From a virus: a stretch of DNA of 55,464 bases. Both the position numbers and the translations under genes were made by a program. Within the stretch, counting starts at the first letter, position 1, and every line of letters begins with the position of its first letter. The notes beneath the pieces were generated by a model. That model did not search any database. It had not been told where the DNA came from and worked only from the letters and a program-made list of their open reading frames with translations. The stretch is from positions 1 to 55,464 of IMG/VR virus record IMGVR_UViG_3300025806_000001; one strand, written 5' to 3'. This document shows positions 3,212-53,604 of the stretch, piece after piece.

Positions 3212-3472
3212 ATGCAGGTAAAATATTTCAGCAAAGACCTTTTGGTAAAGGCTAACAAAACTGCGATTCGTACTAACCGCAATCGTTCGCTTGAACCAAA
3301 GTATTTGTCGCAACTCGACGAAGACAACAAGTACCCTATCGTATGGGCAATGCCACACAATGACGTAGAAATGCGTGTTCGTTTATTATTAAATGCAGAC
3401 GATGATGCGTGGCTCGATATACCCTTTAAAACCTACGACAAACTACCTGTCGTAACAATGCCAACACATTAA
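3212..3472 (+). CDS. Hypothetical protein, 86 aa
   Basis: Not recognised. A small soluble protein, basic at the N terminus (KANKTAIRTNRNR), with a more acidic second half and no membrane segment or Cys. It is the first gene after the primase-helicase pair, has its own putative promoter and a GAAAGGG ribosome site 8 nt before the ATG, and is followed by the DUF932 gene 20 nt downstream. The context suggests an early accessory role. Confidence 0.65.
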   Translation: MQVKYFSKDLLVKANKTAIRTNRNRSLEPKYLSQLDEDNKYPIVWAMPHNDVEMRVRLLLNADDDAWLDIPFKTYDKLPVVTMPTH

Positions 3473-3486
3473 CTCTAGAAAGGAGT
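3472..3486 (+). promoter_or_regulatory. RBS hairpin (AGAAAG-loop family)
   Basis: Stem ACTC (3472-3475) / GAGT (3483-3486), loop TAGAAAG. The Shine-Dalgarno AAAGGAG spans the loop and the 3' stem, and the DUF932 start codon lies 7 nt after the stem. It is the only element in the short gap between the two genes, so it is not tied to a promoter. Confidence 0.6.
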
Positions 3487-3492
3487 ATTCAA

Positions 3493-4521
3493 ATGGCACA
3501 TGAAGTAGAAACAATGGCTTATGCAGGACAAGTTCCTTGGCATGGTCTAGGCAAACAGGTTGACAACAATATGTCTCCTGACGAAATGTTAAAAGCTGCC
3601 CAAATTGACTGGACAGTTAGTAAGCGACCTGCTTACACAATTGACAAACCAAACTGTTGGAATATTGTAGACCCAACAGGCGAGGCAGGGTTTTTGCGTT
3701 GCCCTGACAACCACTTCCTTGTTCGTGACAGTGACAACAAAATACTGTCCCCTTGTGGTGAAGGCTACGTTCCTTTCCAAAACTCAGAAGTTATGGACTT
3801 TTTCAAAAAGTTTACCGAAGCAGGTTCTATGACTATGGAAACAGCAGGTAGCTTAAAAGACGGCAAAGACATTTGGGGGTTAGCAAAGCTTAAAGATGAG
3901 TTTGCTCTTGCAGGTGGCGACGAAGTAAAAGGTTATCTGTTACTAAACAATAGCCACCAAGTCGGTAAAGCCATGACTATTATGTTCACACCTATACGAG
4001 TCGTGTGCAATAATACACTAACAATGGCTCTCAACAACGATGGCAACCGCTTCCGAGTTCTGCACTTACAAATGTTCGACGAGGAAATACAAAAGGCTGC
4101 TGAAGATGCGTTAGGTATTAGTGGTCAGCAAATGACACACTTCAAAGAACAGTCAGAGTTCTTGGCTAACAAACGAGCCAAAGAGTTTGACATCGACAAC
4201 TTTATTGCAGAGTTGTTCCAACCTAATCTACTGATTGAAAGGGCGAAAGCCAGTAACCCTGATACGTTACCTGCTCTACGTGAAGAGTTTAAAAACACAG
4301 CAGAGCTTGTGCATGAGGCAGTAGAAAACAGTCCAGGTCATAACTTAACGTCTGCCAAGGGTACTTGGTGGGGAGCAGTAAATGCTGTGACTTATGTTGT
4401 TGATCACCAGAAAAAGTCTTTAGCTGAGGGTAATGCGTTGCACTCTGCATGGTTTGGCTCGGGTGCAAACACTAAGCGTAAAGCATTGACAAAAGCTGTT
4501 GAGTATGCTAACGTATCTTAA
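3493..4521 (+). CDS. DUF932 / phage-plasmid-like protein (TIGR03299 type)
   Basis: 342 aa. The opening MAHEVETMAYAGQVPWHGLG and the internal QVGKAMTIMFTPIRVVCNNT are hallmarks of the DUF932 family, found in many phages and plasmids. The molecular role is not established; members usually sit in early or replication regions, as here. A GAAAGGAG ribosome site lies within the hairpin immediately upstream. The protein is soluble, with no signal or membrane segment. The C-terminal part (AKGTWWGAVNAVTYVVDHQ) is also typical of the family, so the gene looks full length. Confidence 0.85.
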   Translation: MAHEVETMAYAGQVPWHGLGKQVDNNMSPDEMLKAAQIDWTVSKRPAYTIDKPNCWNIVDPTGEAGFLRCPDNHFLVRDSDNKILSPCGEGYVPFQNSEVMDFFKKFTEAGSMTMETAGSLKDGKDIWGLAKLKDEFALAGGDEVKGYLLLNNSHQVGKAMTIMFTPIRVVCNNTLTMALNNDGNRFRVLHLQMFDEEIQKAAEDALGISGQQMTHFKEQSEFLANKRAKEFDIDNFIAELFQPNLLIERAKASNPDTLPALREEFKNTAELVHEAVENSPGHNLTSAKGTWWGAVNAVTYVVDHQKKSLAEGNALHSAWFGSGANTKRKALTKAVEYANVS

Positions 4522-4543
4522 CCTGATAAACTAAATGTTGTCT

Positions 4544-4579
4544 TGGTAGTGTTCATATATTAGAGTGTGAACACTACCA
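4544..4579 (+). promoter_or_regulatory. Perfect 12-bp inverted repeat, intergenic
   Basis: TGGTAGTGTTCA (4544-4555) and TGAACACTACCA (4568-4579) are exact reverse complements around a 12-nt loop. No T-tract follows, so it is not a typical intrinsic terminator. It could be an operator, an RNA-processing site or an mRNA-protecting hairpin. It lies 2 nt before the RBS hairpin of the next gene, giving two stacked hairpins in one leader. Confidence 0.6.
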
Positions 4580-4581
4580 GT

Positions 4582-4597
4582 TTCCATAGAAAGGGAA
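4582..4597 (+). promoter_or_regulatory. RBS hairpin (AGAAAG-loop family)
   Basis: Stem TTCC (4582-4585) / GGAA (4594-4597), loop ATAGAAAG; start codon 4 nt after the stem. Same loop as the other family members but a different, still complementary, stem. Confidence 0.6.
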
Positions 4598-4601
4598 TTA
4601 A

Positions 4602-5237
4602 ATGCACTATGCGATATGTAACAGTGATAATGAGAACAGCCCTTACCAAGTGCTGTCTTTTACTTCATTAGCCTCTATGAAAGACTGCCAGTTTATAGAT
4701 GAATATAGTATGGTGTACAGTACCAAAGAACCCAAACAGTTGATAGATAATTGGCAACAAGATGAGCTTGAAGGTACATGGCTCAGCATTTTGCTTAACA
4801 GTAAAAAAGCTCATAACAAGTTTTCTACTGACTTAACTACTTACCGAAACATGAAAAACAAGTTTCAGAATAAAGAGATAGCAGCACAGAAACTCCATGA
4901 ACTGGTGCTGTTTTGTGTGAAACCATGGAAAAAGGAAAACCAAATGAATGAAGCTGTAGAAGTCACAACAATTCATGTAGATGAATTTAATAATAAGGCT
5001 CAAAAAGCAGAAAAGGAGGTACGCCCTCGTTTTGAAAAGACAACTAAAATAGTTGCTCTTATGGACACACCCCCAATCCGTTCAGGTACAAATCGTTACC
5101 GTAACATGGAAGTGGTTATGGGATGTGCCACTGTAGCCGAAGCGATGGAAAAACTTCGTGCCTTAGATCCTGCTCCTGGAGGTGGGGTAGATATTAAGAT
5201 TGCTGTAAAGGCAGGAGCCGTTAAGTTAGAGGAGTAA
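4602..5237 (+). CDS. Hypothetical protein, 211 aa, possible internal start
   Basis: Not recognised. It reads as two parts: an N-terminal region of about 113 residues with many Asn/Lys, and a C-terminal region (from about residue 130) with KIVALMDTPPIRSGTNRYR and a Gly-rich turn APGGGVD. An in-frame ATG at 4944 has a good upstream site (AAAAAGGAAAA), so a shorter 97-residue product covering only the C-terminal part may also be made. The gene ends 3 nt before the next one, at the start of the modification-like block. Confidence 0.65.
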   Translation: MHYAICNSDNENSPYQVLSFTSLASMKDCQFIDEYSMVYSTKEPKQLIDNWQQDELEGTWLSILLNSKKAHNKFSTDLTTYRNMKNKFQNKEIAAQKLHELVLFCVKPWKKENQMNEAVEVTTIHVDEFNNKAQKAEKEVRPRFEKTTKIVALMDTPPIRSGTNRYRNMEVVMGCATVAEAMEKLRALDPAPGGGVDIKIAVKAGAVKLEE

Positions 5238-5240
5238 ACT

Positions 5241-6152
5241 ATGGATACCGAAGCTGTAGAAAGATACTTTGGTTGGATAAATGAAAGACATTCTATTTAC
5301 CAACGCAGGGTAGCCGACGAAATACCACCGTGGACGGAAGATAGAATTCTTCAGGATTATAAGTTTACAAATCCTTTTCGTGAAAACGATAAAGTAACTG
5401 TGTGGATGCGTGAGAATTGGACTAAGCCCAATCACAACCGTCCACACGGTGAAATTATCTTTAACTGTTGCTTGTTTCGTATGATTGGCACAAGTGAGTT
5501 TGCCGATGCCCACAAGTGGGTACACGAAGATGAAGGGTGGGATAAAGATAAAACTAAACAATTAATTGAAGAGCGGTTGTCAAAAGGTTTACGAACTTTT
5601 ACTGGTGCATATATAATCACAAATCAGGGGTTAAAAGCACCAAAGTCGGAGGTCGTGGTTGACTATTTTCTTACGCCCATTTGGGAAGAAAAGAACACGC
5701 TTTCAAAGATTGCCGAGGAATCTTTATCCCTCGAAGCTCTCCACCAAGCGATGGGTTCCTATAAAGGGTGGGGAGGGGGAGGTTTTATGTCGTACGAGGT
5801 GGTTACGGACCTCAACTACACACCTGTGTTGGAAGCCGCGAAGGATCAGTTCACATGGGCTAACGCAGGTCCTGGAGCCAAGCGAGGATTAAACCGTATA
5901 CATTTGCGTGACCTTAAAAAAGGCATGAATCAACAGGTAGCTAATACTGAAATGCAACTGTTGTTAGCCGAAGCTCCCAAGTATTGTAAACCTCATGTAC
6001 CTATAGCTCGTGTAGATATGCGTACTATAGAGCATAGCTTGTGTGAGTGGGATAAATACGAACGTGTGCGTTTAGGACAAGGTACTCCTAGAAGTAGATA
6101 CAACGCTAACATATTATCAAACGACAACTTCAAGAAAGGAACTGTAGAATGA
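5241..6152 (+). CDS. 5-hmdU DNA kinase helical-domain / thymine pyrophosphorylase-like protein (HMUDK_hel family)
   Basis: Matches the family named for the helical domain of 5-hydroxymethyl-dU DNA kinases, also called alpha-glutamyl/putrescinyl thymine pyrophosphorylases. Visible signatures: YFGWINERHSIYQRR (9-23), PPWTEDRILQDYKFTNPFRE (29-48), FMSYEVVTDLNYT (182-194), WANAGPGAKRGLNRI (206-220) and a C-terminal HSLCEWDKY. The family is tied to thymidine hypermodification in phage DNA. No P-loop kinase domain (GxxxxGKS/T) is present, so this is a stand-alone version and its reaction is uncertain. It shares a 4-nt ATGA overlap with the glycosyltransferase and stands two genes before a thymidylate synthase homologue, which supports work on 5-hydroxymethyl-dU or a derivative. 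Confidence 0.75.
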   Translation: MDTEAVERYFGWINERHSIYQRRVADEIPPWTEDRILQDYKFTNPFRENDKVTVWMRENWTKPNHNRPHGEIIFNCCLFRMIGTSEFADAHKWVHEDEGWDKDKTKQLIEERLSKGLRTFTGAYIITNQGLKAPKSEVVVDYFLTPIWEEKNTLSKIAEESLSLEALHQAMGSYKGWGGGGFMSYEVVTDLNYTPVLEAAKDQFTWANAGPGAKRGLNRIHLRDLKKGMNQQVANTEMQLLLAEAPKYCKPHVPIARVDMRTIEHSLCEWDKYERVRLGQGTPRSRYNANILSNDNFKKGTVE

Positions 6153-7489
6153 AGTTCTTAATGACACTATTCCAAATACAAGATTATGGTGGCATAATAA
6201 ACCATGCTGAGTATTTAACCAAAGGCTTGAAAGAGCTAGGGCATGAAGTAGACTTTTGTATGCTCGTCCCTAAAGGGGCTGTTTCAAATAGATTGCCCAT
6301 GCGAGGTAGGCAAGATGGCTACAAATCTTTAGAAGGTGGGACAGGTTATAAGTTTCATCAAGCAAGGGGGTGGAAAGGTGTACCCAAGATACCTTATGTG
6401 AGCAAACAAGCACGAGAGTCATTTAAAGATAGGTGCAGTAAATACGATGCGGTGCTCTGGCACATACCTGTGCCTACCCTTAATAAAGATAACACAGAAA
6501 TCACAGCTTGGTTAGATTTATACGATCACGGTAGCAAAAACATTGCTATCATACACGATGGCAATCTACCTAAGTTGTATCCGCACCTTATCTCTGTTTC
6601 AAAGTATTTTCATGCTGCTGTATGCGTTCATGAAAGTGCATACAACTCGGCAAAATATTTAGATATTCCACGCAAGTTAATCTTAAACCCTTTTAAAATA
6701 CATGGGGATTTTGGCTTAGACTTTGATAAGCGTAGCGGTGCATTGGCTATCCAAATATTCAAGGCATGGAAACGAGTAGATACCCTAGTTCGTGCTGTGC
6801 CGTTTATACAAGAGCCTGTTGTAGTCGGTGGAGCAGGTATTGAATACAGGTACATGACAAGTAAAGATAAGTGTAAACCAAAATACTTTGATGCACAGGG
6901 TAATCGTATATGGGAAGTCGCCCTTAGTAACGGTATGAGTTATCACGGTGTTGTGCCTAATGAAGAAGTATTACGATTGCTTGGTGAGACTAAGTTACAA
7001 ATAGACCCTAGCTTTTCTAAAAAGTATTCTGGTTACGGAGCACACTTTAATCGCACAACGGTAGAGGCAATGATCAAAGGTGCAGTACCAATGGCTACAG
7101 ACTTGGGTATGAAAGATAGCCAGATATTTAAGTCTGGGCGAAACTACATAGAGATACCCCATACAGCTACGCCCGAAGAGTTTGGGGATATAGTAAACGA
7201 GAGTTTGACCAATAAGCAACAGTGGGAAACAATACGACATAACAATCTGGGGGTGCTAAATAAGTTTGATATGCGGAACGTAGCACAAGAATATGCAGAC
7301 ATTGTAACTCAGCCCACGCACTTTCTTGAAAAAGGTCAGCCACAACAAAATATTGGGCTAATTGCAGATTGCAATAAAAACCTACAGTTTTTCGGGCTAC
7401 CGAAGCTTTCGACGCTAATCGAGGAGCGTATGACAGCACAGCATGGGGCAACCCTAGCAAATTATAACAACAACCATCGAGGGGGCTAA
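6149..7489 (+). CDS. GT-B (GT4-like) glycosyltransferase
   Basis: 446 aa. The N-terminal Rossmann-like lobe has a GT4-style opening, QDYGGIINHAEYLTKGLKEL (12-31), for the acceptor side. The C-terminal lobe has the nucleotide-sugar region: IQIFKAWKRVDTLVRAV, and FNRTTVEAMIKGAVPMATD (about 300-319) with the conserved Glu of GT4 enzymes. It overlaps the preceding HMUDK_hel-like gene by 4 nt, and the thymidylate synthase homologue begins 1 nt after its stop, so the three form one translational unit. The simplest reading is a transferase that adds a sugar to a hydroxymethylated pyrimidine in phage DNA. An alternative is modification of a host surface glycan. The sugar donor cannot be read from sequence. 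Confidence 0.75.
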   Translation: MKFLMTLFQIQDYGGIINHAEYLTKGLKELGHEVDFCMLVPKGAVSNRLPMRGRQDGYKSLEGGTGYKFHQARGWKGVPKIPYVSKQARESFKDRCSKYDAVLWHIPVPTLNKDNTEITAWLDLYDHGSKNIAIIHDGNLPKLYPHLISVSKYFHAAVCVHESAYNSAKYLDIPRKLILNPFKIHGDFGLDFDKRSGALAIQIFKAWKRVDTLVRAVPFIQEPVVVGGAGIEYRYMTSKDKCKPKYFDAQGNRIWEVALSNGMSYHGVVPNEEVLRLLGETKLQIDPSFSKKYSGYGAHFNRTTVEAMIKGAVPMATDLGMKDSQIFKSGRNYIEIPHTATPEEFGDIVNESLTNKQQWETIRHNNLGVLNKFDMRNVAQEYADIVTQPTHFLEKGQPQQNIGLIADCNKNLQFFGLPKLSTLIEERMTAQHGATLANYNNNHRGG

Positions 7490-7490
7490 T

Positions 7491-8531
7491 ATGCAGTCGA
7501 TACACGCAAGAAACGTAAGTGAGGCACTATACCTAGCAAAGCAAGCATTAGAAACTAACGGAGTAGAGGTACAAACTCGTAATGGGGCAGCTTTAGAGTT
7601 CCCCACTCCTGTTATGACAACCTACACAGATAGCCGTGAACGAGTGTTGTTTTATCCCGAACGTGATGCCAACCCATACTTCCACTTCATGGAATCTTTA
7701 TGGATGTTGGCAGGACGTAATGATGTAGAATGGATTAGCCAGTTTAACGGCAGGATAAATACCTACAGTGACGATGGCGAGTACTTCCATGGGGCATATG
7801 GTTTTAGATGGAGAGAGTGGTTTGGTGAAGATCAATTATTAACCGCTATTCATAGGCTGAGGAAATACCCAAATGATAGACGAACAGTTATTGGGATGTG
7901 GGATCCATGGGAAGATTTGCAGGAAGAAAACGATGGCAAAGATTATCCTTGCAATACCCAGATTTATTTTTGGTCTCGTAACGACAAACTAAACATGACT
8001 GTAGCTAATCGCAGTAACGATATGATTTGGGGGGCATACGGAGCTAATGCTGTGCATATGTCTTTCTTGTTAGAATACATGGCAGGAATGTGTGGTCTTC
8101 GGGTAGGAACTTATTATCAGTTTAGTAACAACCTTCATGCTTATGTAGATACACTACAAAAGTTAGACAACTTGCAGCCAGAATACGATCCTTACCTTAC
8201 TATCGGTGATGATGGGTTAAGCTATAATCCCCCACCATTAATAGACAACCCTGCTACCTTTGACCAAGACCTCAGCCAGTGGTTTAAAACATGGGGTGGT
8301 GACAACAGTGCTAACAAAACAAGATTAGAGTACAATAAAGAAGTTGAAGACACAGGTGCAATAAATGATTACCTGAACACAACAGCAACGCCCATGATTA
8401 AGTCTTGGAAAGCATGGAAAACTAAAGGCACGAATACCATGTTTATGGATGAAGCAATAATCGAGGCGACAGCAATTAACGATACGGCATGGCGTAAGGC
8501 TTGCCTTGAATGGTTAGAGAGGAGAACATAA
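7491..8531 (+). CDS. Thymidylate synthase homologue, probable dUMP hydroxymethylase or thymidylate synthase
   Basis: 346 aa, thymidylate synthase superfamily. Recognisable blocks: FMESLWMLAGRND (folate/dUMP Glu and Trp), YGFRWREW, DRRTVIGMWDPW, the catalytic cysteine in YPCNTQIYF (C154), ANRSNDMIWG, and GAYGANAVH, whose Asn (N186) is where canonical enzymes hold the uracil base; dCMP hydroxymethylases have Asp there. A dUMP substrate is therefore favoured. Whether the product is dTMP or 5-hydroxymethyl-dUMP cannot be decided from these motifs; the neighbouring HMUDK_hel-like and glycosyltransferase genes favour the latter. The stop overlaps the next ATG (TAATG). Confidence 0.8.
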   Translation: MQSIHARNVSEALYLAKQALETNGVEVQTRNGAALEFPTPVMTTYTDSRERVLFYPERDANPYFHFMESLWMLAGRNDVEWISQFNGRINTYSDDGEYFHGAYGFRWREWFGEDQLLTAIHRLRKYPNDRRTVIGMWDPWEDLQEENDGKDYPCNTQIYFWSRNDKLNMTVANRSNDMIWGAYGANAVHMSFLLEYMAGMCGLRVGTYYQFSNNLHAYVDTLQKLDNLQPEYDPYLTIGDDGLSYNPPPLIDNPATFDQDLSQWFKTWGGDNSANKTRLEYNKEVEDTGAINDYLNTTATPMIKSWKAWKTKGTNTMFMDEAIIEATAINDTAWRKACLEWLERRT

Positions 8532-8911: not shown

Positions 8912-9056
8912 AGTGCTAGTTGCCGTTTGTGAGTGTGGGGTTACAAAGGAGGTTACTTTTCGCAATTTGAAAAATAAGTGGGCTAAATGTCATAAATGCA
9001 ACCAACCGATGAAAGTGAAAAGTAATGCAGTTTCCTTTATTTCAACCCCCGACTGA
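8856..9056 (+). CDS. Small zinc-ribbon-like protein, 66 aa
   Basis: Start ATG 8856, inside the end of the preceding gene, is preferred to an upstream in-frame ATG because GGAAGGAAA lies just before it. The protein has one CxC (VCECGV) and one CxxC (CHKCNQP) spaced about 20 residues apart, a likely four-cysteine zinc site. It overlaps the upstream gene by 56 nt and the polymerase gene by 32 nt. The function is unknown; small zinc ribbons in phage early regions often bind nucleic acid or host polymerase. Confidence 0.6.
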   Translation: MTKSQTSSLKNDANGKLDEVLVAVCECGVTKEVTFRNLKNKWAKCHKCNQPMKVKSNAVSFISTPD

Positions 9057-12060: not shown

Positions 12061-12080
12061 AAAATCACAGAAAGGATTTT
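12061..12080 (+). promoter_or_regulatory. RBS hairpin (AGAAAG-loop family), longest stem
   Basis: Stem AAAATC (12061-12066) / GATTTT (12075-12080), six pairs, loop ACAGAAAG; start codon 2 nt after the stem. An all-A/T outer stem with the same loop shows that pairing, not stem sequence, is retained. Confidence 0.6.
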
Positions 12081-13007: not shown

Positions 13008-13072
13008 AGAGTTATCAATACCAACTGCTGTGTTACTATATAGTATAGACATTCCGCAGAAAGGGGATATTT
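12989..13072 (+). promoter_or_regulatory. Promoter block, copy 2 of a duplicated intergenic unit
   Basis: 20-mer GAACAAACAAGACAAATAAA (12989-13008), then TTATCA (13012-13017), N16 and TACTAT (13034-13039), matching the arrangement at 3128-3211. The 20-mer overlaps the 3' end of the upstream reading frame here, as it does at the first copy. An RBS hairpin follows. Confidence 0.5.
13051..13068 (+). promoter_or_regulatory. RBS hairpin (AGAAAG-loop family)
   Basis: Stem ATTCC (13051-13055) / GGGAT (13064-13068) with one G-U pair, loop GCAGAAAG; start codon 4 nt after the stem. Confidence 0.6.
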
Positions 13073-13255
13073 ATGCGACTAACTAAACCACAATCTACGT
13101 CTTTGCTCCGCAAGTGGCAACAAGACGACCAAGGACTCACGTTTCTTGGTTTCCGTAAACTTGTACAATCCACTAATTTTATGGACGACGCTGTTGTCGT
13201 GAAATGGTGCAATATGTTTCTTGCAATAGAAACTGATGGTTACACACACTCGTAG
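13073..13255 (+). CDS. Conserved small phage protein, 60 aa
   Basis: The core GLTFLGFRKLVQ, VVVKWCNMFLAIETDGYTHS is a pattern I recognise in small proteins of many environmental phages; function unknown. A single Cys; the hydrophobic stretch is short and is more likely a beta hairpin than a membrane helix. An AAAGGGGA ribosome site is part of the upstream hairpin. Confidence 0.7.
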   Translation: MRLTKPQSTSLLRKWQQDDQGLTFLGFRKLVQSTNFMDDAVVVKWCNMFLAIETDGYTHS

Positions 13256-13263
13256 AAAGGAGT
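13248..13263 (+). promoter_or_regulatory. RBS hairpin (AGAAAG-loop family) overlapping upstream stop codon
   Basis: Stem ACTC (13248-13251) / GAGT (13260-13263), loop GTAGAAAG. The UAG stop of the preceding gene (13253-13255) lies in the loop, so ribosomes finishing that gene must melt the hairpin. Start codon 5 nt after the stem. Confidence 0.6.
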
Positions 13264-14463: not shown

Positions 14464-14480
14464 TACTCAAGAAAGGGGTA
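14464..14480 (+). promoter_or_regulatory. RBS hairpin (AGAAAG-loop family)
   Basis: Stem TACTC (14464-14468) / GGGTA (14476-14480) with one G-U pair, loop AAGAAAG; start codon 4 nt after the stem. Confidence 0.6.
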
Positions 14481-16039: not shown

Positions 16040-16044
16040 ATATA

Positions 16045-16290
16045 TTATCTGGACTTTGCTATATAGGGGTAAATGATGGATAGGACTCTTTTTGTTTTTA
16101 ATGATTTGATAATATACAATATCTCACTATACCCCTATATTCAATAGGTTAGCATGGATTATGGTTCTCTGACTCCGATATCTTGATCACAATAGATCAT
16201 TACTTTCGTGTTCGCGCGACTTCAAATCAGGGCTGTTTTAAAATGGCTACTTTTCTTTTTCCCTCCTATTTAGTAAAGTGGTCCCATCAT
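16045..16290 (+). promoter_or_regulatory. Long leader element, copy A, with extended -10 promoter
   Basis: Shares ordered blocks with 53337-53510: TTATCTGG (16045), TTTGCTATATAG with TATATA at 16060-16065 preceded by TGC (extended -10), GGTAAA, GATAGGA, ATATACAATATCT (16112-16124), ACTTTCGTG (16202-16210), TCGCGCGA palindrome (16212-16219), AAATC and CCTATTtAGTAAA. This copy has about 77 extra nt, including an inverted copy of ATATAGGGGTA (16061-16071 against 16130-16140). It fills most of the 344-nt gap upstream of the small terminase gene. Long conserved 5' leader, origin-like element, or both. Confidence 0.6.
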
Positions 16291-18157: not shown

Positions 18158-18173
18158 GCTCGTAGAAAGGAGC
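18158..18173 (+). promoter_or_regulatory. RBS hairpin (AGAAAG-loop family)
   Basis: Stem GCTC (18158-18161) / GAGC (18170-18173), loop GTAGAAAG; start codon 7 nt after the stem. Confidence 0.65.
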
Positions 18174-18180: not shown

Positions 18181-18606
18181 ATGGCTAATACAGCTAAAAA
18201 GACTTCCCCTAAATCTGCCACTAAAAAGGTGGTAAAATCCGTTGAGTTAGTGGTCACTGACCAAGAGCTAACTTACGACGACATCTGGCATTTTGTACAG
18301 ACTCAGGCAGGTGGCAATGAGGCTAACGTGAAAATCGTACCTCTTGACAATGTTGACCTCAAGTCTGACGCACCTGTGCCATTTGGTTATGGTGGACGAG
18401 CAGGTGGTGTTCGTCAAAAAATTCAAGACTGGATGTTGCGTGGTGTTGATGGCGACCTCACACTAAAAGCGGTTCTCACTAAAGCCGCTCCATTAGGACA
18501 CAGTCGCAAAAAGCCTGTCTGTCTACACGCCCTCTTGCATGGTGGTTACTCACCGTCTAGTAAATACTGGATGACACCATATGTCAAACTCGTAGTACAA
18601 GCTTAA
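18181..18606 (+). CDS. Lysine-tailed paralogue 1, function unknown, 141 aa
   Basis: Not recognised. A basic Lys/Thr/Ala-rich tail (TAKKTSPKSATKKVVKS, residues 4-20) precedes a folded region that is clearly homologous to the protein at 19035-19460: DIWxFVQxxAGGN, PLDNVxLxSDxPVPFGY, GGVRxxIQDW, PLGHSxKxP and YVKLVVQ are common to both. The Gly-rich, highly ordered motifs suggest an enzyme-like or nucleic-acid-binding fold. It has its own promoter, RBS hairpin and a strong terminator, so it is a single-gene transcription unit, which often indicates high or independently timed expression. Confidence 0.8.
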   Translation: MANTAKKTSPKSATKKVVKSVELVVTDQELTYDDIWHFVQTQAGGNEANVKIVPLDNVDLKSDAPVPFGYGGRAGGVRQKIQDWMLRGVDGDLTLKAVLTKAAPLGHSRKKPVCLHALLHGGYSPSSKYWMTPYVKLVVQA

Positions 18607-18610
18607 GGAT

Positions 18611-18636
18611 AAGGGGACTTCGGTCCCCTTTTTCTC
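18611..18636 (+). terminator. Rho-independent terminator with UUCG tetraloop
   Basis: AAGGGGAC (18611-18618), loop TTCG, GTCCCCTT (18623-18630), then TTTCTC. Eight perfect pairs closed by the very stable UUCG loop. Confidence 0.9.
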
Positions 18637-18718
18637 TTATCCCATTCCCGAGGAAAATTGATGATTATCCCATTCCCGAGGAAGACCGACGACATATATG
18701 TATGAGTACATATATTAA

Positions 18719-19013: not shown

Positions 19014-19029
19014 AACCGTAGAAAGGGTT
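19014..19029 (+). promoter_or_regulatory. RBS hairpin (AGAAAG-loop family)
   Basis: Stem AACC (19014-19017) / GGTT (19026-19029), loop GTAGAAAG; start codon 5 nt after the stem. The loop is identical to that of the first paralogue, while all four stem pairs differ. Confidence 0.65.
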
Positions 19030-19034: not shown

Positions 19035-19460
19035 ATGACAAAAGCAAAAACAAAAACAACCGCCACTAAATCAGTCGCAGTAGCAACGCTACAAAATACT
19101 GGTACTCCTATCAACTACTCTGACATCTGGGCTTTCGTTCAAGCCGAAGCAGGTGGCAATGTACATAATGTACAGGTTCTTCCGCTTGACAATGTTAAGC
19201 TAGATTCAGATCAGCCAGTGCCGTTCGGTTACACTGGCAAGGTCGGCGGTGTTCGTGCCACAATCCAAGACTGGTTGCTAAAAGGTTATGAAGGTAATCA
19301 CAGTTTGTTTGCAATCCTTAATGCTGCGAAGCCACTAGGTCACAGCACTAAGTCGCCTATCTGTTTGTTGGCAATGCTTAACGGTGGTTATACTCCGAGC
19401 AGTTCAGTATATGGTACTGGCTATGTCAAACTGGTAGTTCAACCTCAAGCCACAGCCTAA
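19035..19460 (+). CDS. Lysine-tailed paralogue 2, function unknown, 141 aa
   Basis: Same length as the protein at 18181-18606, and more than half of the 110-residue core is identical by eye. The tail is again Lys/Thr/Ala-rich (TKAKTKTTATKSVAVA) but its sequence is not conserved, so charge appears to matter more than sequence. Core motifs: DIWAFVQAEAGGN, PLDNVKLDSDQPVPFGY, GGVRATIQDWLL, PLGHSTKSPICLLAMLNGGY, YVKLVVQP. Own promoter with an inverted repeat, RBS hairpin and downstream hairpin. Function unknown; histone-like or coat-accessory roles are guesses. Confidence 0.8.
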   Translation: MTKAKTKTTATKSVAVATLQNTGTPINYSDIWAFVQAEAGGNVHNVQVLPLDNVKLDSDQPVPFGYTGKVGGVRATIQDWLLKGYEGNHSLFAILNAAKPLGHSTKSPICLLAMLNGGYTPSSSVYGTGYVKLVVQPQATA

Positions 19461-19467
19461 CGTCAAC

Positions 19468-19493
19468 GGCTAGGGGGATGGGTCCCCCTAGCC
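19468..19493 (+). terminator. Strong hairpin without T-tract
   Basis: GGCTAGGGGGA (19468-19478), loop TGGG, TCCCCCTAGCC (19483-19493): eleven perfect pairs. No U-tract follows, so it may be a 3'-end stabiliser or a factor-dependent terminator. Confidence 0.6.
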
Positions 19494-19705: not shown

Positions 19706-21187
19706 ATGTATTTTAAAAATATGAGCTTTGATTTAACGAACGTGCCAGAAGAGCATTTGAAAAAGTTTGCGACTTTATTAGACCGAGCTAAGGAAATTGG
19801 TGAGTCTGAGTTAGCCCGTGATGATTTTATGGCTTTTACAAAAGTTGTGTGGGAAGATTTTATAAATGGACGCCACCATAAGATAATGGCAGAGAAGTTT
19901 AACCGTTTGGCTCGTGGAGAGTTGAAACGATTAATCGTGAATATGCCACCTCGGCACACGAAATCTGAATTCGGAAGTTATTTATTACCTGCGTGGTTGA
20001 TGGGACGTAAGCCTACGTTAAAGATTATGCAGACGACGCACACTGCTGAGTTGGCGTTTAGATTTGGTCGTAAGACACGTAATTTAATGAACTCGGATGC
20101 GTATAAAAAAATTTTTGATGTAGAGTTGCGAGCGGATAGTCAGGCAGCGGGACGTTGGGAAACGTCAAGAGGTGGTGAATATTTTGCTGCGGGAGTTGGT
20201 GGTGCGGTTACTGGACGTGGTGCTGATTTGTTAATTATTGATGACCCCCATAGTGAACAAGATGCGTTAAGTCCTACGGCTATGGAACATGCTTATGAGT
20301 GGTATACGTCAGGACCACGGCAGAGGCTTCAACCTGGAGGGTCTATCGTGATTATTATGACCCGATGGGCAGAAAATGATTTAACAGGTAAGTTGTTGAA
20401 GCAGCAGGGGCGAGATGTTTTAGCTGATAAGTGGGAAGTTGTAGAGTTTCCTGCGTTGATGCCAGAGACTGGTGAGCCGTTGTGGGGTGAGTATTGGAAA
20501 AAGGAAGATTTACTTTCTGTTAAGGGCAGTTTATCAGTAGGTAAGTGGGAAGCTCAGTGGCAGCAAAACCCGACGAGTGAACAGTCAGCTATATTAAAGC
20601 GTGATTGGTGGAAGCGTTGGGAAAAGAAAGAGTTGCCCCCTTTGGAGTATGTGATGCAGAGTTATGATACTGCGTATAGTAAACAGACAACTGCTGATTA
20701 TAGTGCGATAACCACATGGGGTGTATTTTATCCTAGAGAAGGTGAACCACCAAACATTATTCTTGTAGATGCTCAGCGTGGACGATGGGATTTTCCTGAT
20801 TTGCGTAGGCGAGCGTTGGAAGAATACAAGTATTGGGATCCTGAATGTGTGTTAATTGAGGCGAAAGCTTCAGGTATGCCATTGACCCAAGAGTTGCGAA
20901 CTATGGGCATTCCAGTGCAAAATTATAGCCCGAGTAGAGGAAATGATAAGTTCACTCGTGTGAATTCAGTTGCACCTTTACTTGAAAGTGGGTTAGTATG
21001 GGCTCCAGATACTCGATGGGCAGAAGAAGTTGTTGAAGAGTGTGCTGCTTTTCCTGCAGGAGAGCATGATGATTATGTTGATACGGTTACGCAAGCGTTA
21101 CGCAGATTTAGAGAGGGCGGTTTTATTCAACACCCCGAAGATTATGAGGAAGAGGATACAGCTCCTAGAATAAGGAAGTATTATTAA
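19706..21187 (+). CDS. terL: Terminase large subunit
   Basis: 493 aa packaging motor. ATPase: an N-terminal region with LKRLIVNMPPRHTKSEFGSY (about residues 72-91) carrying an atypical Walker A, and ADLLIIDDPHSEQDAL (Walker B, Asp-Asp). Nuclease: QSYDTAYSKQTTADYSA (about 317-333) and a C-terminal HDDYVDTVTQALRRF with the last acidic residues. Full length. The start is uncertain: neither ATG 19706 nor the in-frame ATG 19721 has a good ribosome site, so translation may be modest. The stop overlaps the portal start region by 1 nt. Confidence 0.9.
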   Translation: MYFKNMSFDLTNVPEEHLKKFATLLDRAKEIGESELARDDFMAFTKVVWEDFINGRHHKIMAEKFNRLARGELKRLIVNMPPRHTKSEFGSYLLPAWLMGRKPTLKIMQTTHTAELAFRFGRKTRNLMNSDAYKKIFDVELRADSQAAGRWETSRGGEYFAAGVGGAVTGRGADLLIIDDPHSEQDALSPTAMEHAYEWYTSGPRQRLQPGGSIVIIMTRWAENDLTGKLLKQQGRDVLADKWEVVEFPALMPETGEPLWGEYWKKEDLLSVKGSLSVGKWEAQWQQNPTSEQSAILKRDWWKRWEKKELPPLEYVMQSYDTAYSKQTTADYSAITTWGVFYPREGEPPNIILVDAQRGRWDFPDLRRRALEEYKYWDPECVLIEAKASGMPLTQELRTMGIPVQNYSPSRGNDKFTRVNSVAPLLESGLVWAPDTRWAEEVVEECAAFPAGEHDDYVDTVTQALRRFREGGFIQHPEDYEEEDTAPRIRKYY

Positions 21188-47501: not shown

Positions 47502-47511
47502 AGGAAAGCAC

Positions 47512-50500
47512 ATGGCAGACCCACTAATATTAAGTGCTCCTACAATAGATGAAATAGAGAGCACAGCACCTAATCTTCAATTTTTAGATCCTCGCAAAGA
47601 TGATCAGAAAGGTCCTGATGCGATAGTACCTCAAGCAGAGGTTACTGCTCAAGTAGAGTTGCAACCTTCTAGACTGACACGTTTAGGTATCGATCCTAAA
47701 ACAGGAGAAAAAAGAGATTTACAGGAAATATATGATGAGCAATACGGTGGTTCTACCATAGCAGGAGAAGTTGCTATTGCTGCTAATGAATTTATAGATA
47801 ATAGTATTGGGGGTCTTGCACGAGGAGCTAACGATTTTATATTAGGGATTCCTAATTTTGCATTAAACCAAATTGATAACGCATTGACCGCAGCAGGAAT
47901 TGTAGAAGAAAATACGATCGATAGAGATTTTTTGCTTAGAGCCATAAACTCAAATGATTTTGAAGCACAGAAAACAATTATTCCTTATTTGTTAGCGTAT
48001 GGTGCAGGGGAAAGAATAGGTTCTACAGATAAAGATAGCATTGTTGAACGATACGGTCGATCAGCAGGAGAAAACATATCTATGGCTGTTCCTTTTATAG
48101 CTTTGCAAATGAAACTTGCTCAATTAACTAATCTTACAGGAAGTGCAGTTTATCAAGCAACTCGAGGTCCTATCAAATCTATATCAGACAAAGTAGCTCC
48201 TTATTTAGATCGCATAGCAGCTCCTTTTAGAACAGCTCCTGGAGCTGCCACAGCGGTAGAAGTAGCAGGAGCAGGTTTAGCAGGGGTAGGTATGCAAGCC
48301 GAAGAAGATATATTCGGCACAAATACTGGTATCGGTGGGTTGGCTGCTGTTGGTGCTCCTTTTTACTTAGCGACTAAAATGACTCCTCAACTCAAGACTG
48401 CTTTTACTTGGCTCGGTAAACCTGCAATGACAATGGCAGATGATGCTCTTTTAAAATCAGGAGTTGTAAGTCCTGGAGGAGGCAAAGCTCAAAGCCAGTT
48501 AGAAAATCAAATAGCTATTGCCAAAGGAACAAATGAAGGAGCTGCGAATTGGCAAAGAGCTCAAGAAATAGAAACAAAGCTAGGACCTTTTGCTCCTGAC
48601 GATAGTCCTATAGTTCTTACTCCAGGAGAAAAAACATTAGACGCTCCCTTTTTAGCTACCCAAGCACGTTTAGAAGGAAAAGGAGATGCGGAGTTTACAC
48701 GCAAAAACCTAAGTCGTAAATTTAATGTGTTAGAAAGTATTGCAAATTTTAAAAATTATTTGATAAAGGGCAAAGGCGACCCTACTTTAGATTCACCTTT
48801 ATACATTTATGATGAGGCTACAAACTCTTACACTTCTACAGTAGGTAAGTTAGATGCTGAAAAAGGTGATTTAGCTTTTCAATTAGATACTTTAAGCCAT
48901 CAAACTGATGGGGCTTTTCCTCTTATGACAGACAAAGCAGCAACAGGGGAACAAGTTCGTCAAAGTCTTATTGCAGCTAAAGACGCAGCTAAAAATTCTG
49001 CAGAACAACTCGCTACAAAATTAAAAATAAATCAAGCTGATCAGTTAGCAAGTAATGATGCCTTAGTCGCAGCACAAGAAAGTTTGAAAAAACAAGTTCT
49101 GACACGCCAAGGAGACGAAGCATTATCTTTTAAAGGTTTGCACCCTATAGTTAAAGATTTCTTAAATACAAAATTAAAACGTGTGTCTTTTCAAGATTGG
49201 AAAAGTTTTTCTAGCCAAACAAGTGATGCTCTTGGCAAAGCTGTAGCAAATAACAAAAGCGAAGATATAAGAACTCTAGCTATACTAAAGAAAACTTTAG
49301 ATAACATGGGTACTACTTACGGTAGAACTTCAGAGAAGTTTCAACAATTTCAAACAGTTTGGAGAGAAACGGTTATTGAACCATTTTCCAATAGTTTCGT
49401 AAGCAAAGTAATAGATGGTCCTGGAGGTAAACGAGGTTATACGTTAGCTCCTGAAAAAGTTGCCAAAGCTTTTTTAAGTGATTCTAATGCAGCTAAAACA
49501 TACATGAGTCTTTTTGCAGATGATCCAGATAAAATGAGGTTTATGAAGAACGCTGTTTTAGATGCAGTTCGCAAAGCAGGGATAGGACCGAAAGGTTTAA
49601 ATGCAGATAAAATAAATACCCACCTCAATACAAACAGGGATGTATATACAGAGCTCGGTTTATTTGATGACCTTAGTAACTCTAACAAATTAGTAAGTGA
49701 TGTGTTAGCTAGACAAGCTGAGTTAGCTACTAGAACAAAACTTGTTAATTCTAACTTGCTGTTTAAATCTATTGCAAAGTCTATGAACAACAGCAACCCA
49801 CAATCATTGTTTGACGATGCAATAAAAAACCCTACTATTATGAAAGAGCTAAAACAGATAGCAGCTAAAGGGTCTGACAGTTTATCGCCAGAAGAATCTT
49901 TGTATGTTTTTCGGGCTGCAATAACAGATAGGTTGTTTAAAAATTACAGTGGAACTGATGTTCTTGCTAATCCTAAAGCTTTCAAACAAATGATTGTAGA
50001 TAACGAAGTTGCGTTAAACCAAGCTTTTGATAAAAAACACTTAGACAATATTTATCTTGTAGCGGATGCAGCAGAAAGAATAATGGCGACAGGTCTACCT
50101 AAAGGAGCAGGTACAACTACTGACGATATTATCACTGCTTTATCTGCTAAAATGGGAACCTCTCCTGCAGGAATCTCTAACCGTTTCATTGCTGTGCAAG
50201 AAGGAAGGTTAGGACCAAGAGCTGCTATAGGATATATTGCTTCAAGGTTTTTAAGGCAACAAAGTAGTGCCAGAACAGAAATGTTATTTAAAGAAATGAT
50301 GTTTAATCCTCAAGTTGCAAATGATTTAACTGTGATAGGACCTAAAAACCTTAGTATATCAGAGCCTGTGCGTCTTAGGATGAACACTTATCTGTTTAAC
50401 GTAGGAGTAGAAGCGTTAGGAGGTCGACCAGATGTTGACCCAGATACTACAAGGGAAATTATTTTTGAAGCCCCAATAGGTAATCAAGGTTCTGTTTCAC

Positions 50501-50700
50501 CTAATATTTTACCGCCTGTTAATACTAATCAGTTTGCTGCTGCTCCAGTGAATAATGCTCCACCTCCTGCTCCTGTAGCAAGTAAGCAACAAACAAATAC
50601 TCAAACAGCCTCAGCTAGTGATCTTTTCCCTTTCGATCCAACGCTTGCTGCTATAGAAAAAAGACAAAACGCTAAACAAGGCATAATGTCTGTTACCTAA
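47512..50700 (+). CDS. Very large internal/ejection protein, 1062 aa
   Basis: Largest gene in the genome, analogous in size and place to T7 gp16-like internal proteins, though sequence similarity cannot be judged by eye. A Gly/Ala-rich region near 200-300 (AVEVAGAGLAGVGMQAEEDI) may be membrane-active. A helical middle part follows. Near residue 880 lies PAGISNRFIAVQEGRLGPRA, shared with the 81-aa protein at 32666-32911. Pro/Ala-rich C-terminal tail. No peptidoglycan hydrolase motif was recognised. Confidence 0.6.
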   Translation: MADPLILSAPTIDEIESTAPNLQFLDPRKDDQKGPDAIVPQAEVTAQVELQPSRLTRLGIDPKTGEKRDLQEIYDEQYGGSTIAGEVAIAANEFIDNSIGGLARGANDFILGIPNFALNQIDNALTAAGIVEENTIDRDFLLRAINSNDFEAQKTIIPYLLAYGAGERIGSTDKDSIVERYGRSAGENISMAVPFIALQMKLAQLTNLTGSAVYQATRGPIKSISDKVAPYLDRIAAPFRTAPGAATAVEVAGAGLAGVGMQAEEDIFGTNTGIGGLAAVGAPFYLATKMTPQLKTAFTWLGKPAMTMADDALLKSGVVSPGGGKAQSQLENQIAIAKGTNEGAANWQRAQEIETKLGPFAPDDSPIVLTPGEKTLDAPFLATQARLEGKGDAEFTRKNLSRKFNVLESIANFKNYLIKGKGDPTLDSPLYIYDEATNSYTSTVGKLDAEKGDLAFQLDTLSHQTDGAFPLMTDKAATGEQVRQSLIAAKDAAKNSAEQLATKLKINQADQLASNDALVAAQESLKKQVLTRQGDEALSFKGLHPIVKDFLNTKLKRVSFQDWKSFSSQTSDALGKAVANNKSEDIRTLAILKKTLDNMGTTYGRTSEKFQQFQTVWRETVIEPFSNSFVSKVIDGPGGKRGYTLAPEKVAKAFLSDSNAAKTYMSLFADDPDKMRFMKNAVLDAVRKAGIGPKGLNADKINTHLNTNRDVYTELGLFDDLSNSNKLVSDVLARQAELATRTKLVNSNLLFKSIAKSMNNSNPQSLFDDAIKNPTIMKELKQIAAKGSDSLSPEESLYVFRAAITDRLFKNYSGTDVLANPKAFKQMIVDNEVALNQAFDKKHLDNIYLVADAAERIMATGLPKGAGTTTDDIITALSAKMGTSPAGISNRFIAVQEGRLGPRAAIGYIASRFLRQQSSARTEMLFKEMMFNPQVANDLTVIGPKNLSISEPVRLRMNTYLFNVGVEALGGRPDVDPDTTREIIFEAPIGNQGSVSPNILPPVNTNQFAAAPVNNAPPPAPVASKQQTNTQTASASDLFPFDPTLAAIEKRQNAKQGIMSVT

Positions 50701-50752
50701 TTGATATTAATAAAAACATGAATAAATTATCAAAAGAAAGCATTGTTAGAAC

Positions 50753-51178
50753 ATGGATCTACCCAAGATAAACATAGCTGTAGCTGCTTCAGCAGTGGTT
50801 GCGATTGTGTCTACTGTGGGCGGTGGTATATGGTATGCTTCTTCGCAAGCTTCAGTAATAGAAAGCTTAACAGAACAAGTTGAAGTTTTAACAATAGAAA
50901 ATAATGCAACTGACCGTACAAACCTAATTCGCGATGTAGAACAAAACAGAGAAAAACTTGATGAAGTAGCCCATATACTTGCAGAAATTTATGAGGATAT
51001 GGAAGAAGCAGATAACGAAATTTGGGATGAAACTGAAATGATTTGGGAAGATGTAGGTGGCATGGCTTCTCATATGATGGAAATAATTAGAGTTCAAGCT
51101 CGCATTAAAACTTTAGAAAGTACAATGGAGTATCTTACAGGCAGTTCAAGATCCCCTCTTCATCCTGACGCAAGGTAG
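50753..51178 (+). CDS. Membrane-anchored coiled-coil protein, 141 aa
   Basis: An N-terminal hydrophobic helix (INIAVAASAVVAIVSTVGGG, residues 7-26, then IWYASSQ) anchors a long acidic coiled coil (LTEQVEVLTIENNATD, EDMEEADNEIWDETEM). Looks like a spanin- or envelope-spanning helper, but no partner lipoprotein is recognised. Function unknown. Confidence 0.6.
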   Translation: MDLPKINIAVAASAVVAIVSTVGGGIWYASSQASVIESLTEQVEVLTIENNATDRTNLIRDVEQNREKLDEVAHILAEIYEDMEEADNEIWDETEMIWEDVGGMASHMMEIIRVQARIKTLESTMEYLTGSSRSPLHPDAR

Positions 51179-51187
51179 TAATACCCA

Positions 51188-51664
51188 ATGATAGATCCCG
51201 CAAGTGCAATCGCAGCCTGTACTCTTGCTTTTAAGGGCATAAAGAAAGCCGTTTCTATAGGCAAAGATATCAGTGACATGGGAAGGGATCTTTCTAATTT
51301 TGGTAAAGCTGTTTCTGATTTAAATTATCTTGGTAATAAAGCTAATAACCCACCTTTATGGAAAAAAGTAAAACCTGGATTTGATACTTCTGCGGTAGAA
51401 ATTTGGGCAGCTCAACAAAAAGCTAAAGAGATGCGAGAAGAGTTACGTGATTATATTAGTCTTTACTATGGACCAAGTGCTTGGAAAGCTATCGTTAACA
51501 TTGAAGTAGAACAAAGACGTTTACAAAAAGAAGCGGTATACAAAAGACAAGAAAAAATAGATCACCTCATAAATTGGGGTGTTGGGATTGGAATTGTTTT
51601 AATTGGCTTGGTTATATTTGGAGCAGTGATATACTTTATAGGCAAAGGTAGGGGTCAGTGGTAA
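51188..51664 (+). CDS. Conserved marine-phage membrane protein, 158 aa
   Basis: IDPASAIAACTLAFKGIKKA start, helical middle (AAQQKAKEMREELRDYISLY) and a C-terminal membrane helix (NWGVGIGIVLIGLVIFGAVI). I recognise this layout from marine phage genomes, where its role is unknown. Followed immediately by a 57-aa gene that starts on its last base. Confidence 0.65.
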   Translation: MIDPASAIAACTLAFKGIKKAVSIGKDISDMGRDLSNFGKAVSDLNYLGNKANNPPLWKKVKPGFDTSAVEIWAAQQKAKEMREELRDYISLYYGPSAWKAIVNIEVEQRRLQKEAVYKRQEKIDHLINWGVGIGIVLIGLVIFGAVIYFIGKGRGQW

Positions 51665-51837
51665 TGGTTTATGTTTTAGTGTTCTTGCATTTTATTAATA
51701 CAGACCATTTAAAATATTATCAAATTGATACATATTCAGACAAACAAGAATGTTTAGCTCAAGCGGAAAAGGCAAAAATACTGGTAACACACAACTCAAT
51801 GAAAGTAACGTGTTTAGAAATTACAACCAGTAATTAA
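51664..51837 (+). CDS. Small protein, 57 aa, convergent with the helicase
   Basis: ATG 51664 overlaps the preceding stop by 1 nt; TAA at 51835-51837 overlaps the end of the minus-strand helicase gene by 4 nt. A hydrophobic start (MVYVLVFLHFI) and two Cys (C30, C50) suggest an exported or membrane-tethered peptide with a possible disulfide. Not recognised. Confidence 0.55.
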   Translation: MVYVLVFLHFINTDHLKYYQIDTYSDKQECLAQAEKAKILVTHNSMKVTCLEITTSN

Positions 51838-53273
51838 ATTATCCAGTCTTTGTAACCTTCAGCTAATACTTGTGAGCTAATGTCTATCTTATTACGCAAC
51901 GCCCTAAGTATTTTTTCATCGCTTGTGTTGTCTGCAACAATATCAATATAGGTAACTTTATTAACTTGTCCTATACGGTGAGCTCTATCTTCACTTTGCA
52001 ATCTTACTTCTAAATCGTATCCATTGCTGTAATAGATCACTGTTTTTGCTTCTGTCAGAGTCAGCCCATAGCCACCTGTGCGTGGTTGCCCAACAAAGAA
52101 CCTCAGAGGATCGTCTTTATCTTGAAATCTTTCAACAATTAACTGCCTTTCTTCTCCTGGAGTTCCACCATAAAATAATTCTACAGATTCAGGACCATAC
52201 TGCTTGGCAAGAGCTTCACCTATAATTTCAAGATCATGGGTAAAGTTCCCCCATATAATTGCCTTACCATCTGTTTCTTCCAACAAAGACATAAGCTCAG
52301 TTAGCTTGTTGCTTGGAACTTTGATCATTCGCCCATCTTCTAACTTTGCAAAACCAGAGCAAACTTGCTGCAACCTTAACAGTTGAGTTAGTATAGTAGA
52401 GGCAGAAATCATACCTTCACCTTCAATGATTGCGAGGGCGTTGCGTTTTAATTGGTCGTACAATTTACGTTGCTCGGGTGTTAGCTCTACTAATCGTTTG
52501 GTATATACTTTGTCAGGTAAATCTAAACAGTCTTCTTTGCGTACCCTAAAGCTGAAGTCTTCTATTAGTTCGTTTAGCTCACTTAGGTTTTGGTATCCTA
52601 CAATCTGGTTAAATGAGTGAGCTCCCATATTTTTCCGCACCATTTTAGCATAGCGGTTTTGGAATGTCCAGAAAGATGTATGCCCTAATACATTGTTTTT
52701 CAAGAAGTCACATTGTGTGAACAAATCAAGTGGCGACTTAGTCACAGGCGATCCTGTAAGTATTCTACGATAAGGAGCATTTTTACCAAGTTTAATTATA
52801 CTCTTTGTACGATTTGCTGTTCGTGATTTTATGGTAGTGCTTTCATCTACAGCAAGCATTGCCCTATGGCACAGTAGAAATTTATCAGCAACCTCAACCC
52901 CACGTTTACTTGACAATGCCTCTACATTCATAAGGAATATTTGTAGGTCATCCGTTTGTTTATTCAACGTGTTTAATTCTTCTTGTTTCTTTTTTGTTTT
53001 TTCTGGCGACCATGTAACAATGTTCGCTTTTACATGATCTGGCAAATGTGTGGGTAGTTCTTTGCGTTCCCAGTTTCTATACACACCTTTTGGTGCAATG
53101 ATCAACGCAGAATCTATTTCACCTTTATCGTACAACATAGCAATGTTATCTATAAGAACTTTAGATTTACCTGTACCCATATCCATAAAAAGAGCATAAT
53201 ACTCTTTAGTCCAAGATTTTTCTAAAGCTTCGAGTTGGTGCTCGTATGGCTTGAATTTAAACTTGTATCGCAT
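51834..53273 (-). CDS. SNF2-family DNA helicase/translocase
   Basis: 479 aa from ATG 53273, chosen because AGAGGG lies just upstream and the alternative TTG at 53300 falls inside the predicted promoter. Motifs: YEHQLEAL (Q-type), LFMDMGTGKSKVL (Walker A, about 28-40), MLAVDESTTIKSRTANRTKS (Walker B region, DEST for DEAH), RILTGSPVTKSPLDLFTQ (motif III), GGYGLTLTEAKTVIYYS (motif V) and QSEDRAHRIGQ (motif VI). Such phage proteins are thought to remodel or repair DNA forks, in a role like T4 UvsW. The only convincing gene on the minus strand. Confidence 0.88.
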   Translation of the reverse strand: MRYKFKFKPYEHQLEALEKSWTKEYYALFMDMGTGKSKVLIDNIAMLYDKGEIDSALIIAPKGVYRNWERKELPTHLPDHVKANIVTWSPEKTKKKQEELNTLNKQTDDLQIFLMNVEALSSKRGVEVADKFLLCHRAMLAVDESTTIKSRTANRTKSIIKLGKNAPYRRILTGSPVTKSPLDLFTQCDFLKNNVLGHTSFWTFQNRYAKMVRKNMGAHSFNQIVGYQNLSELNELIEDFSFRVRKEDCLDLPDKVYTKRLVELTPEQRKLYDQLKRNALAIIEGEGMISASTILTQLLRLQQVCSGFAKLEDGRMIKVPSNKLTELMSLLEETDGKAIIWGNFTHDLEIIGEALAKQYGPESVELFYGGTPGEERQLIVERFQDKDDPLRFFVGQPRTGGYGLTLTEAKTVIYYSNGYDLEVRLQSEDRAHRIGQVNKVTYIDIVADNTSDEKILRALRNKIDISSQVLAEGYKDWII

Positions 53274-53299
53274 TCGCCCTCTTTCTATTGGGTACAACA

Positions 53300-53328
53300 A
53301 TTCTATTACACAGCTATATAATAGACAA
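53300..53328 (-). promoter_or_regulatory. Minus-strand promoter of the SNF2 gene
   Basis: Read on the minus strand: TTGTCT (53328-53323), N17, TAGAAT (53305-53300, one mismatch to TATAAT). The predicted start site leaves about 20 nt of leader to the ATG at 53273. Confidence 0.55.
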
Positions 53329-53336
53329 CTGCTATT

Positions 53337-53510
53337 TTATCTGGTTTGCTATATAGAGGTAAAAGACCGATAGGATTGTTTTAAGTTTTTAACATTTATA
53401 AATATACGATATACAATATCTTCAACTTTCGTGGTCGCGCGACTAAATCGGACTTTATTTTATTGGTCATTGCTTTGTTTTTAGTGCCTATTAGTAAAAG
53501 TTAAAACCCC
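53337..53510 (+). promoter_or_regulatory. Long leader element, copy B, with extended -10 promoter
   Basis: Counterpart of 16045-16290. TTATCTGG (53337-53344), TTTGCTATATAG with TATATA at 53350-53355, GGTAAA, GATAGGA, ATATACAATATCT (53409-53421), ACTTTCGTG (53425-53433), palindrome GTCGCGCGAC (53434-53443), then CCTATTAGTAAA. The -10 lies about 250 nt before the start of the first early gene, nearly the same distance as in copy A. The 300-nt gap between the divergent genes is mostly this element; 53511-53586 shows nothing else clear. Confidence 0.6.
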
Positions 53511-53586
53511 TACAAGATAGTGGAGATAGTAAAGGATAACTTACTGCTTTTATTTTTACGCTATACCAAGTAAAGTTAAATATACC

Positions 53587-53604
53587 CATGTGGAGAAAGA
53601 CATG
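53587..53604 (+). promoter_or_regulatory. RBS hairpin (AGAAAG-loop family) enclosing the start codon
   Basis: Stem CATGT (53587-53591) / ACATG (53600-53604), loop GGAGAAAG. Here the start codon ATG (53602-53604) is itself part of the 3' stem, and the Shine-Dalgarno GGAG is in the loop. Confidence 0.6.

Follow-up and report, generated by a model that had tools for sequence, protein, structure and literature searches.

AGAAAG-loop hairpins at early-gene ribosome sites in a lineage of uncultured marine phages: putative translational operators and a candidate regulator gene

The virus record IMGVR_UViG_3300025806_000001 (55,464 bases, analysed over its full length and referred to here as the window) carries at the ribosome sites of ten genes a short hairpin whose stem varies in sequence but remains paired, and whose loop ends in a fixed AGAAAG. 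We regard it as virtually certain that this hairpin is a real RNA element. We propose that the hairpins serve an early-gene regulon as translational operators, and that their likeliest reader is Fam1, a basic protein encoded by two genes of the window; this reading as a whole is assigned a probability of about 0.6. The original prediction, made from the sequence of the window, had postulated a phage-wide RNA element at early-gene ribosome sites, and this postulate is now supported by a covariance model, covariation, recurrence in relatives and a shuffled-sequence control. To it we add the two geometries of the element, its restriction to one lineage, its promoter-proximal position and a candidate regulator gene.

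The hairpin occurs in two arrangements around the ribosome site. In class A (159 sites), the Shine-Dalgarno sequence AAGG(AG) straddles the end of the loop and the 3' arm, and the start codon lies mostly 8-10 nucleotides (nt) past AGAAAG. The class B loop is in most cases GGAGAAAG, its GGAG serves as the Shine-Dalgarno sequence, and the start codon as a rule lies in the 3' arm or borders on it. The count for class B is 33 sites, which includes a few that belong to class A but have another possible start codon closer by. One to two bases at the start of the loop are variable, the 3' arm invariably adjoins AGAAAG, and some stems can shift by one base to give a 7-nt loop. All ten predicted hairpins were located in the window. 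Their predicted form, a stem enclosing (N)N-AGAAAG upstream of the start codon, describes nine of them, with the start codon about 8-11 nt past the loop; at gene 53602, the start codon instead lies inside the 3' arm. The ten hairpins are:

3472..3486, plus strand: ACTC-TAGAAAG-GAGT, leader of DUF932 gene 3493; 7-nt loop; class A here, either class in orthologs
4582..4597, plus strand: TTCC-ATAGAAAG-GGAA, leader of gene 4602; class A
12061..12080, plus strand: AAAATC-ACAGAAAG-GATTTT, leader of gene 12083; class A; 24.3 bits with the covariance model
13051..13068, plus strand: ATTCC-GCAGAAAG-GGGAT, leader of gene 13073; class A
13248..13263, plus strand: ACTC-GTAGAAAG-GAGT, leader of gene 13269; class A
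14464..14480, plus strand: TACTC-AAGAAAG-GGGTA, leader of gene 14485; class A, 7-nt loop
16904..16921, plus strand: AACCC-GAAGAAAG-GGGTT, leader of gene 16927; class A
18158..18173, plus strand: GCTC-GTAGAAAG-GAGC, leader of Fam1 gene 18181; class A; covariation among orthologs
19014..19029, plus strand: AACC-GTAGAAAG-GGTT, leader of the Fam1 paralog 19035; class A
53587..53604, plus strand: CATGT-GGAGAAAG-ACATG; class B; the loop contains GGAG, and the start codon of gene 53602 lies within the 3' arm

Since these stems comprise just 4-6 base pairs (bp), one might suspect that purine-rich ribosome sites pair by chance with pyrimidines upstream of them. Ten of the 21 ribosome-site AGAAAG hexamers of the window possess a stem of at least 4 bp, while permutation of the 3' arms yielded 1.9 on average and 8 at most, none of the 20,000 permutations reaching the observed count. 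Away from ribosome sites, such a stem accompanies 2 of 41 AGAAAG hexamers, and other purine hexamers at the ribosome sites of the window are paired in 3 of 105 cases (2.9%). The original prediction had stated that it would fall if shuffled sequences or purine-rich sites in general paired just as often; it is chance pairing that these data, together with the 40 compensatory changes on the Fam1 tree described below, refute, and its probability is negligible. Two look-alike sites, at genes 6149 and 54489, were excluded because relatives do not conserve them, and Rfam release 15 gave no match in the window at or above its gathering cut-off.

The specificity of the loop becomes apparent in the relatives of this phage. 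In a first set of relatives, 50% of the ribosome-site AGAAAG hexamers carry a stem of at least 4 bp, as against 14% after permutation (maximum 18%) and 13% away from ribosome sites. A loop-variant test, in which AGAAAG formed the last six bases of an 8-nt loop, covered 2,429 upstream regions of relatives and found stems of at least 4 bp at 121 of 309 AGAAAG sites versus 21.8 expected, an approximately 5.5-fold excess. None of the 18 single-base neighbours of AGAAAG that were seen exhibited a comparable excess, the largest being that of AGAGAG (2/24 versus 0.1 expected). The stem is also specific to certain genes: the AGAAAG-bearing leaders of families 33, 29 and 17 have it in 0/26, 0/12 and 0/4 cases, respectively, as against all of those of Fam1 described below.

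Covariation, which the original prediction had proposed as a check, holds in ortholog leaders; figures derived from stem-selected sites were set aside as evidence. In 26 Fam1 leaders picked irrespective of their stems, 97% of the cells are paired with 18 double changes, a level that none of 500 shuffles attained, and the pairing is lost when the partners are slid against each other. By parsimony on a 93-gene Fam1 protein tree, 40 double changes keep a pair and 3 break one, while slid controls gave 2-8 pair-keeping changes. Pairing of the start codon with bases upstream of it, in an outer helix, did not rise above permutation (0.48 versus 0.43, with a permuted maximum of 0.50).

The case for a reader that recognises the loop rests mainly on the fact that the loop persists while its relation to the Shine-Dalgarno sequence changes. 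The leader of the DUF932 gene is of class A in the window and of class B in two relatives (L062 and L064), and both classes occur among the orthologs of the 13548 family; such switching between classes with retention of the loop therefore favours a trans-acting reader. The hairpin of gene 53602 is present in 18 of 18 carrier genomes, and where the start codon of this gene has changed from ATG to GTG, the stem has followed, from CATGT/ACATG to CATGG/CCGTG. We consider it likely that the hairpin is an operator for a trans-acting factor. A phage-encoded antisense or kissing RNA was rejected, the loop-pairing CTTTCT being absent from the non-coding regions of the window.

Among the three functions originally offered, a binding site for a translational regulator, an RNase site and a device that exposes the ribosome site, the first fits best. 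Pure exposure is disfavoured because only AGAAAG, and no single-base variant of it, occurs in large loop excess, and because the 3' arm occupies part of the Shine-Dalgarno sequence. In a broader form, a structure acting solely in cis could display the Shine-Dalgarno sequence in the loop or cap a short 5' leader against decay, with no specific reader, as the location of the hairpins near the 5' ends of short leaders might suggest; any stable loop or Shine-Dalgarno sequence would then serve, yet even GNRA-like variants lack the excess, and the stems are short and weak. We therefore regard a cis-only role as highly improbable.

The covariance model, when applied to related marine phages as had been proposed, gave several matches per genome in the 18 carriers, whereas ten relatives, the four isolates among them, had next to none. 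The element is missing from the closest isolates, HTVC027P, HTVC023P, 023Pt_psg01 and DSL-LC04. The exact 16-mer ACTCGTAGAAAGGAGT, one form of the hairpin, was found in 56 of 2.9 million contigs, 53 of which share proteins with the lineage of the window. The element is nearly confined to one lineage of uncultured marine phages, each carrier of which has it on about ten early genes. In the window, early replication genes are followed by a region of small genes at 12-19 kb, by the terminase gene at 19706 and then by the structural genes; the predicted lack of the element at structural genes was borne out, with zero covariance-model matches at approximately 19.7-51.7 kb.

At hairpin genes, the upstream spacer has a median of 75 nt versus 5 nt at control genes, and 41% of them have a -10-like box as compared with 9% of the controls. 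The hairpins often lie close behind these promoter-like boxes, near the 5' ends of short leaders, and the hairpin genes are probably the first genes of transcripts with short leaders. This promoter-proximal position might also suit an element of transcription, either a nut/put-like antitermination site or a DNA operator, but the chance of this is remote: the position of the hairpin is fixed relative to the start codon, class B is built around that codon, there is no excess at AGAAAG away from ribosome sites, and the arm sequences are free, unlike those of a double-stranded DNA site. Just 5' of the hairpin of gene 4602, at 4545-4578 and within a promoter-like stretch, lies the inverted repeat GGTAGTGTTCA-N12-TGAACACTACC, whose arms vary yet remain matched in two relatives (L018 and L020); it could be a palindrome for a repressor or else another RNA hairpin.

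With regard to the putative reader, exactly two protein families are shared by all 16 near-complete carriers but missing from every one of the 10 non-carriers. Their genes in the window are:

18181..18606, plus strand: Fam1 gene, 141 amino acids, basic; leading candidate regulator, with the hairpin in its own leader
19035..19460, plus strand: second Fam1 paralog, 141 amino acids
3199..3472, plus strand: AGAAAG ribosome site without a short stem and Fam33 gene 3212 (86 amino acids); alternative candidate regulator

Fam1 proteins have an isoelectric point (pI) of 8.7-10.6 across the family. Among the distinct Fam1 leaders having AGAAAG, a stem of at least 3 bp is present in 122 of 122 and one of at least 4 bp in 116 of 122. 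The Fam1 gene also carries the hairpin in its own leader in 12 of 12 deeper relatives examined. In a reverse search by Fam1 protein, 129 of 129 loci carry hairpins, versus 3 of 19 Fam1-less relatives, and hairpin density is 4.33 per 10 kb at Fam1 loci versus 0.06 in the Fam1-less relatives. The AlphaFold2 model of Fam1 has a confident core (predicted local distance difference test, pLDDT, 86; predicted template modelling score, pTM, 0.77). We name Fam1 as the trans-acting factor tentatively, at somewhat less than even odds. Right after both Fam1 genes lie GC-rich hairpins, at 18606-18650 (with a T run, terminator-like) and at 19460-19490, which suggest that each Fam1 gene is its own transcription unit.

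Several points weigh against Fam1 as the reader of a translational operator. The carriers form one lineage, so that the association with Fam1 is confounded with descent, and the distribution of Fam33 is the same as that of Fam1. The deeper relatives were recovered by the hairpin search itself; only the reverse search by Fam1 protein escapes this bias, and close relatives and repeats of one contig are counted among its 129 loci. Many second copies of Fam1 have no AGAAAG, and the Fam1 genes of two genomes (G014 and G023) are also without the hairpin. Fam1 resembles no known RNA-binding protein: it has no match in Pfam or PHROGs, and PDB and BFVD likewise contain nothing that its model matches. 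The hairpins are, moreover, weak by themselves, the energies of whole leaders lying only partly below those of shuffled sequences.

The same operator might be read by another protein, either Fam33 or an RNA-binding protein of the host, which we consider somewhat unlikely. Fam33 is the only other family with the distribution of Fam1, and its gene at 3212 retains AGAAAG in its own leader without a short stem, as the original prediction had noted and as is also true of its orthologs (AGAAAG in 26 of 39 leaders, none with a stem of at least 3 bp; the wide-loop stem at 3212 folds differently among orthologs). However, Fam33 lacks a hairpin of its own, and its charge is inconsistent (pI 4.2-9.9). 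A host factor would also explain the limitation to one lineage if the carriers have a common host, but the known candidates are a poor match for the element. Targets of CsrA/RsmA are small loops at the Shine-Dalgarno sequence in weak hairpins of many mRNAs (PMC7652899), but CsrA needs an unpaired GGA in the loop (ANGGAN), which is present in 2 of 159 class A and 22 of 33 class B loops; a factor with the ARN spacing of the Hfq type would tolerate loop variants that show no excess. Two further families were rejected as the factor: Fam30 (gene 4602) is absent from most deeper relatives, and Fam29 (gene 8531) is present in a non-carrier too. The model of Fam30 (4602-5237) consists of an N-terminal domain and a C-terminal strand-three helices-strand unit, winged-helix-like in look, and has no match in PDB. 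A search of isolate phages gave no Fam1 or Fam30 match and no isolated carrier.

With Fam1 as the likeliest reader, we envision the following sequence of events. A trans-acting factor would read a weak hairpin with a 7-8-nt loop ending in AGAAAG and an adjoining 3' arm, the stem being free in sequence as long as it is paired, and its binding would stabilise the hairpin. When bound, a class A hairpin would keep the Shine-Dalgarno sequence from the 30S subunit, and a class B hairpin would withhold both the start codon and the GGAG Shine-Dalgarno sequence from it. About ten early transcripts would be shut off together, and Fam1, made from genes 18181 and 19035, would also repress itself. We infer translation as the level of control, repression as its sign and Fam1 as the binder; the sign might instead be activation. 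With rather more doubt than confidence, we suggest that Fam1, having no detectable relative in sequence or predicted fold, may have founded a new class of phage RNA-binding proteins that represses the early regulon and itself through AGAAAG hairpins of two geometries.

Operators of this general kind are known from other phages. In MS2-type single-stranded RNA phages, the coat protein binds a short hairpin over the ribosome site with fixed loop bases and a flexible stem. The present element is similar in all three respects; however, the MS2-type operator serves a single target in an RNA phage, and its loop and protein are unrelated to those described here as far as is known. The gp43 protein of phages T4 and RB69 represses its own translation through a hairpin with the conserved loop bases -UAAC- (PMC3014915). 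A fixed-loop hairpin at the ribosome site is likewise found here, but gp43 has one target, whereas about ten per genome are present in the carriers, with the hairpin over the Shine-Dalgarno sequence or the AUG. In autogenous operators of the gp43 and MS2 kind, the gene for the regulator bears the operator in its leader; Fam1 leaders do carry the hairpin, which would be a parallel if the candidate Fam1 were the regulator. The T4 RegA protein is a phage-encoded repressor acting at the ribosome sites of about 30 early and middle mRNAs (PMC3014915) and resembles the proposed system in covering many early genes at these sites; RegA sites are, however, A+U-rich, unstructured and near or over the AUG, in contrast to hairpins with a fixed AGAAAG loop and covarying stems.

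The T4 endoribonuclease RegB provides the precedent for a different role, a processing site at which a phage or host endoribonuclease would cut the loop of early mRNAs and end their translation. RegB acts at such places in T4 and is able to cut a GGAG whose GGA is unpaired and whose last G is constrained (PMC3014915). The present sites, which have a fixed purine loop in common, resemble those of RegB in lying on early-type genes, at the Shine-Dalgarno sequence, and in part of them in containing GGAG. The GGAG (GGAGRAYARAA) motif is, however, no general property of the element, as only 80 of 159 class A sites, and 24 of 33 class B sites, contain GGAG. RegB sites have no conserved structure (PMC3014915) and are generally blocked by structure, and the genes with the same distribution as the element yielded no identified nuclease family; we therefore consider a processing site improbable. 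Our literature search, which left subscription journals mostly outside its scope, found no description of an AGAAAG-loop element.

Several other features of the window, annotated here with simple gene calling, deserve mention. Its ends are identical over 127 bp (1-127 and 55338-55464), and its terminase (19706) and that of Pelagibacter phage HTVC027P share 63% identity. Gene 7491-8531 resembles thymidylate synthase or dUMP hydroxymethyltransferase and shares 44% identity with genes of Pseudomonas M6-like phages, hinting at modified DNA. A non-coding repeat of 80 bp with 80% identity is present in two intergenic regions (16041-16122 and 53333-53412). Assignment of a host through genome bins was dismissed, the metagenome-assembled bins being too weak for this use.

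Known phage translational operators are mostly confined to a single gene, as those of the MS2 coat protein and gp43, or are unstructured sites, as those of RegA. Fam1 and Fam33 are now named as two candidate genes that can be tested in cell-free systems, with neither the phage nor its host at hand. One loop copied to about ten genes, each with a stem free to vary, would offer a direct route to a new RNA-binding protein together with its code.

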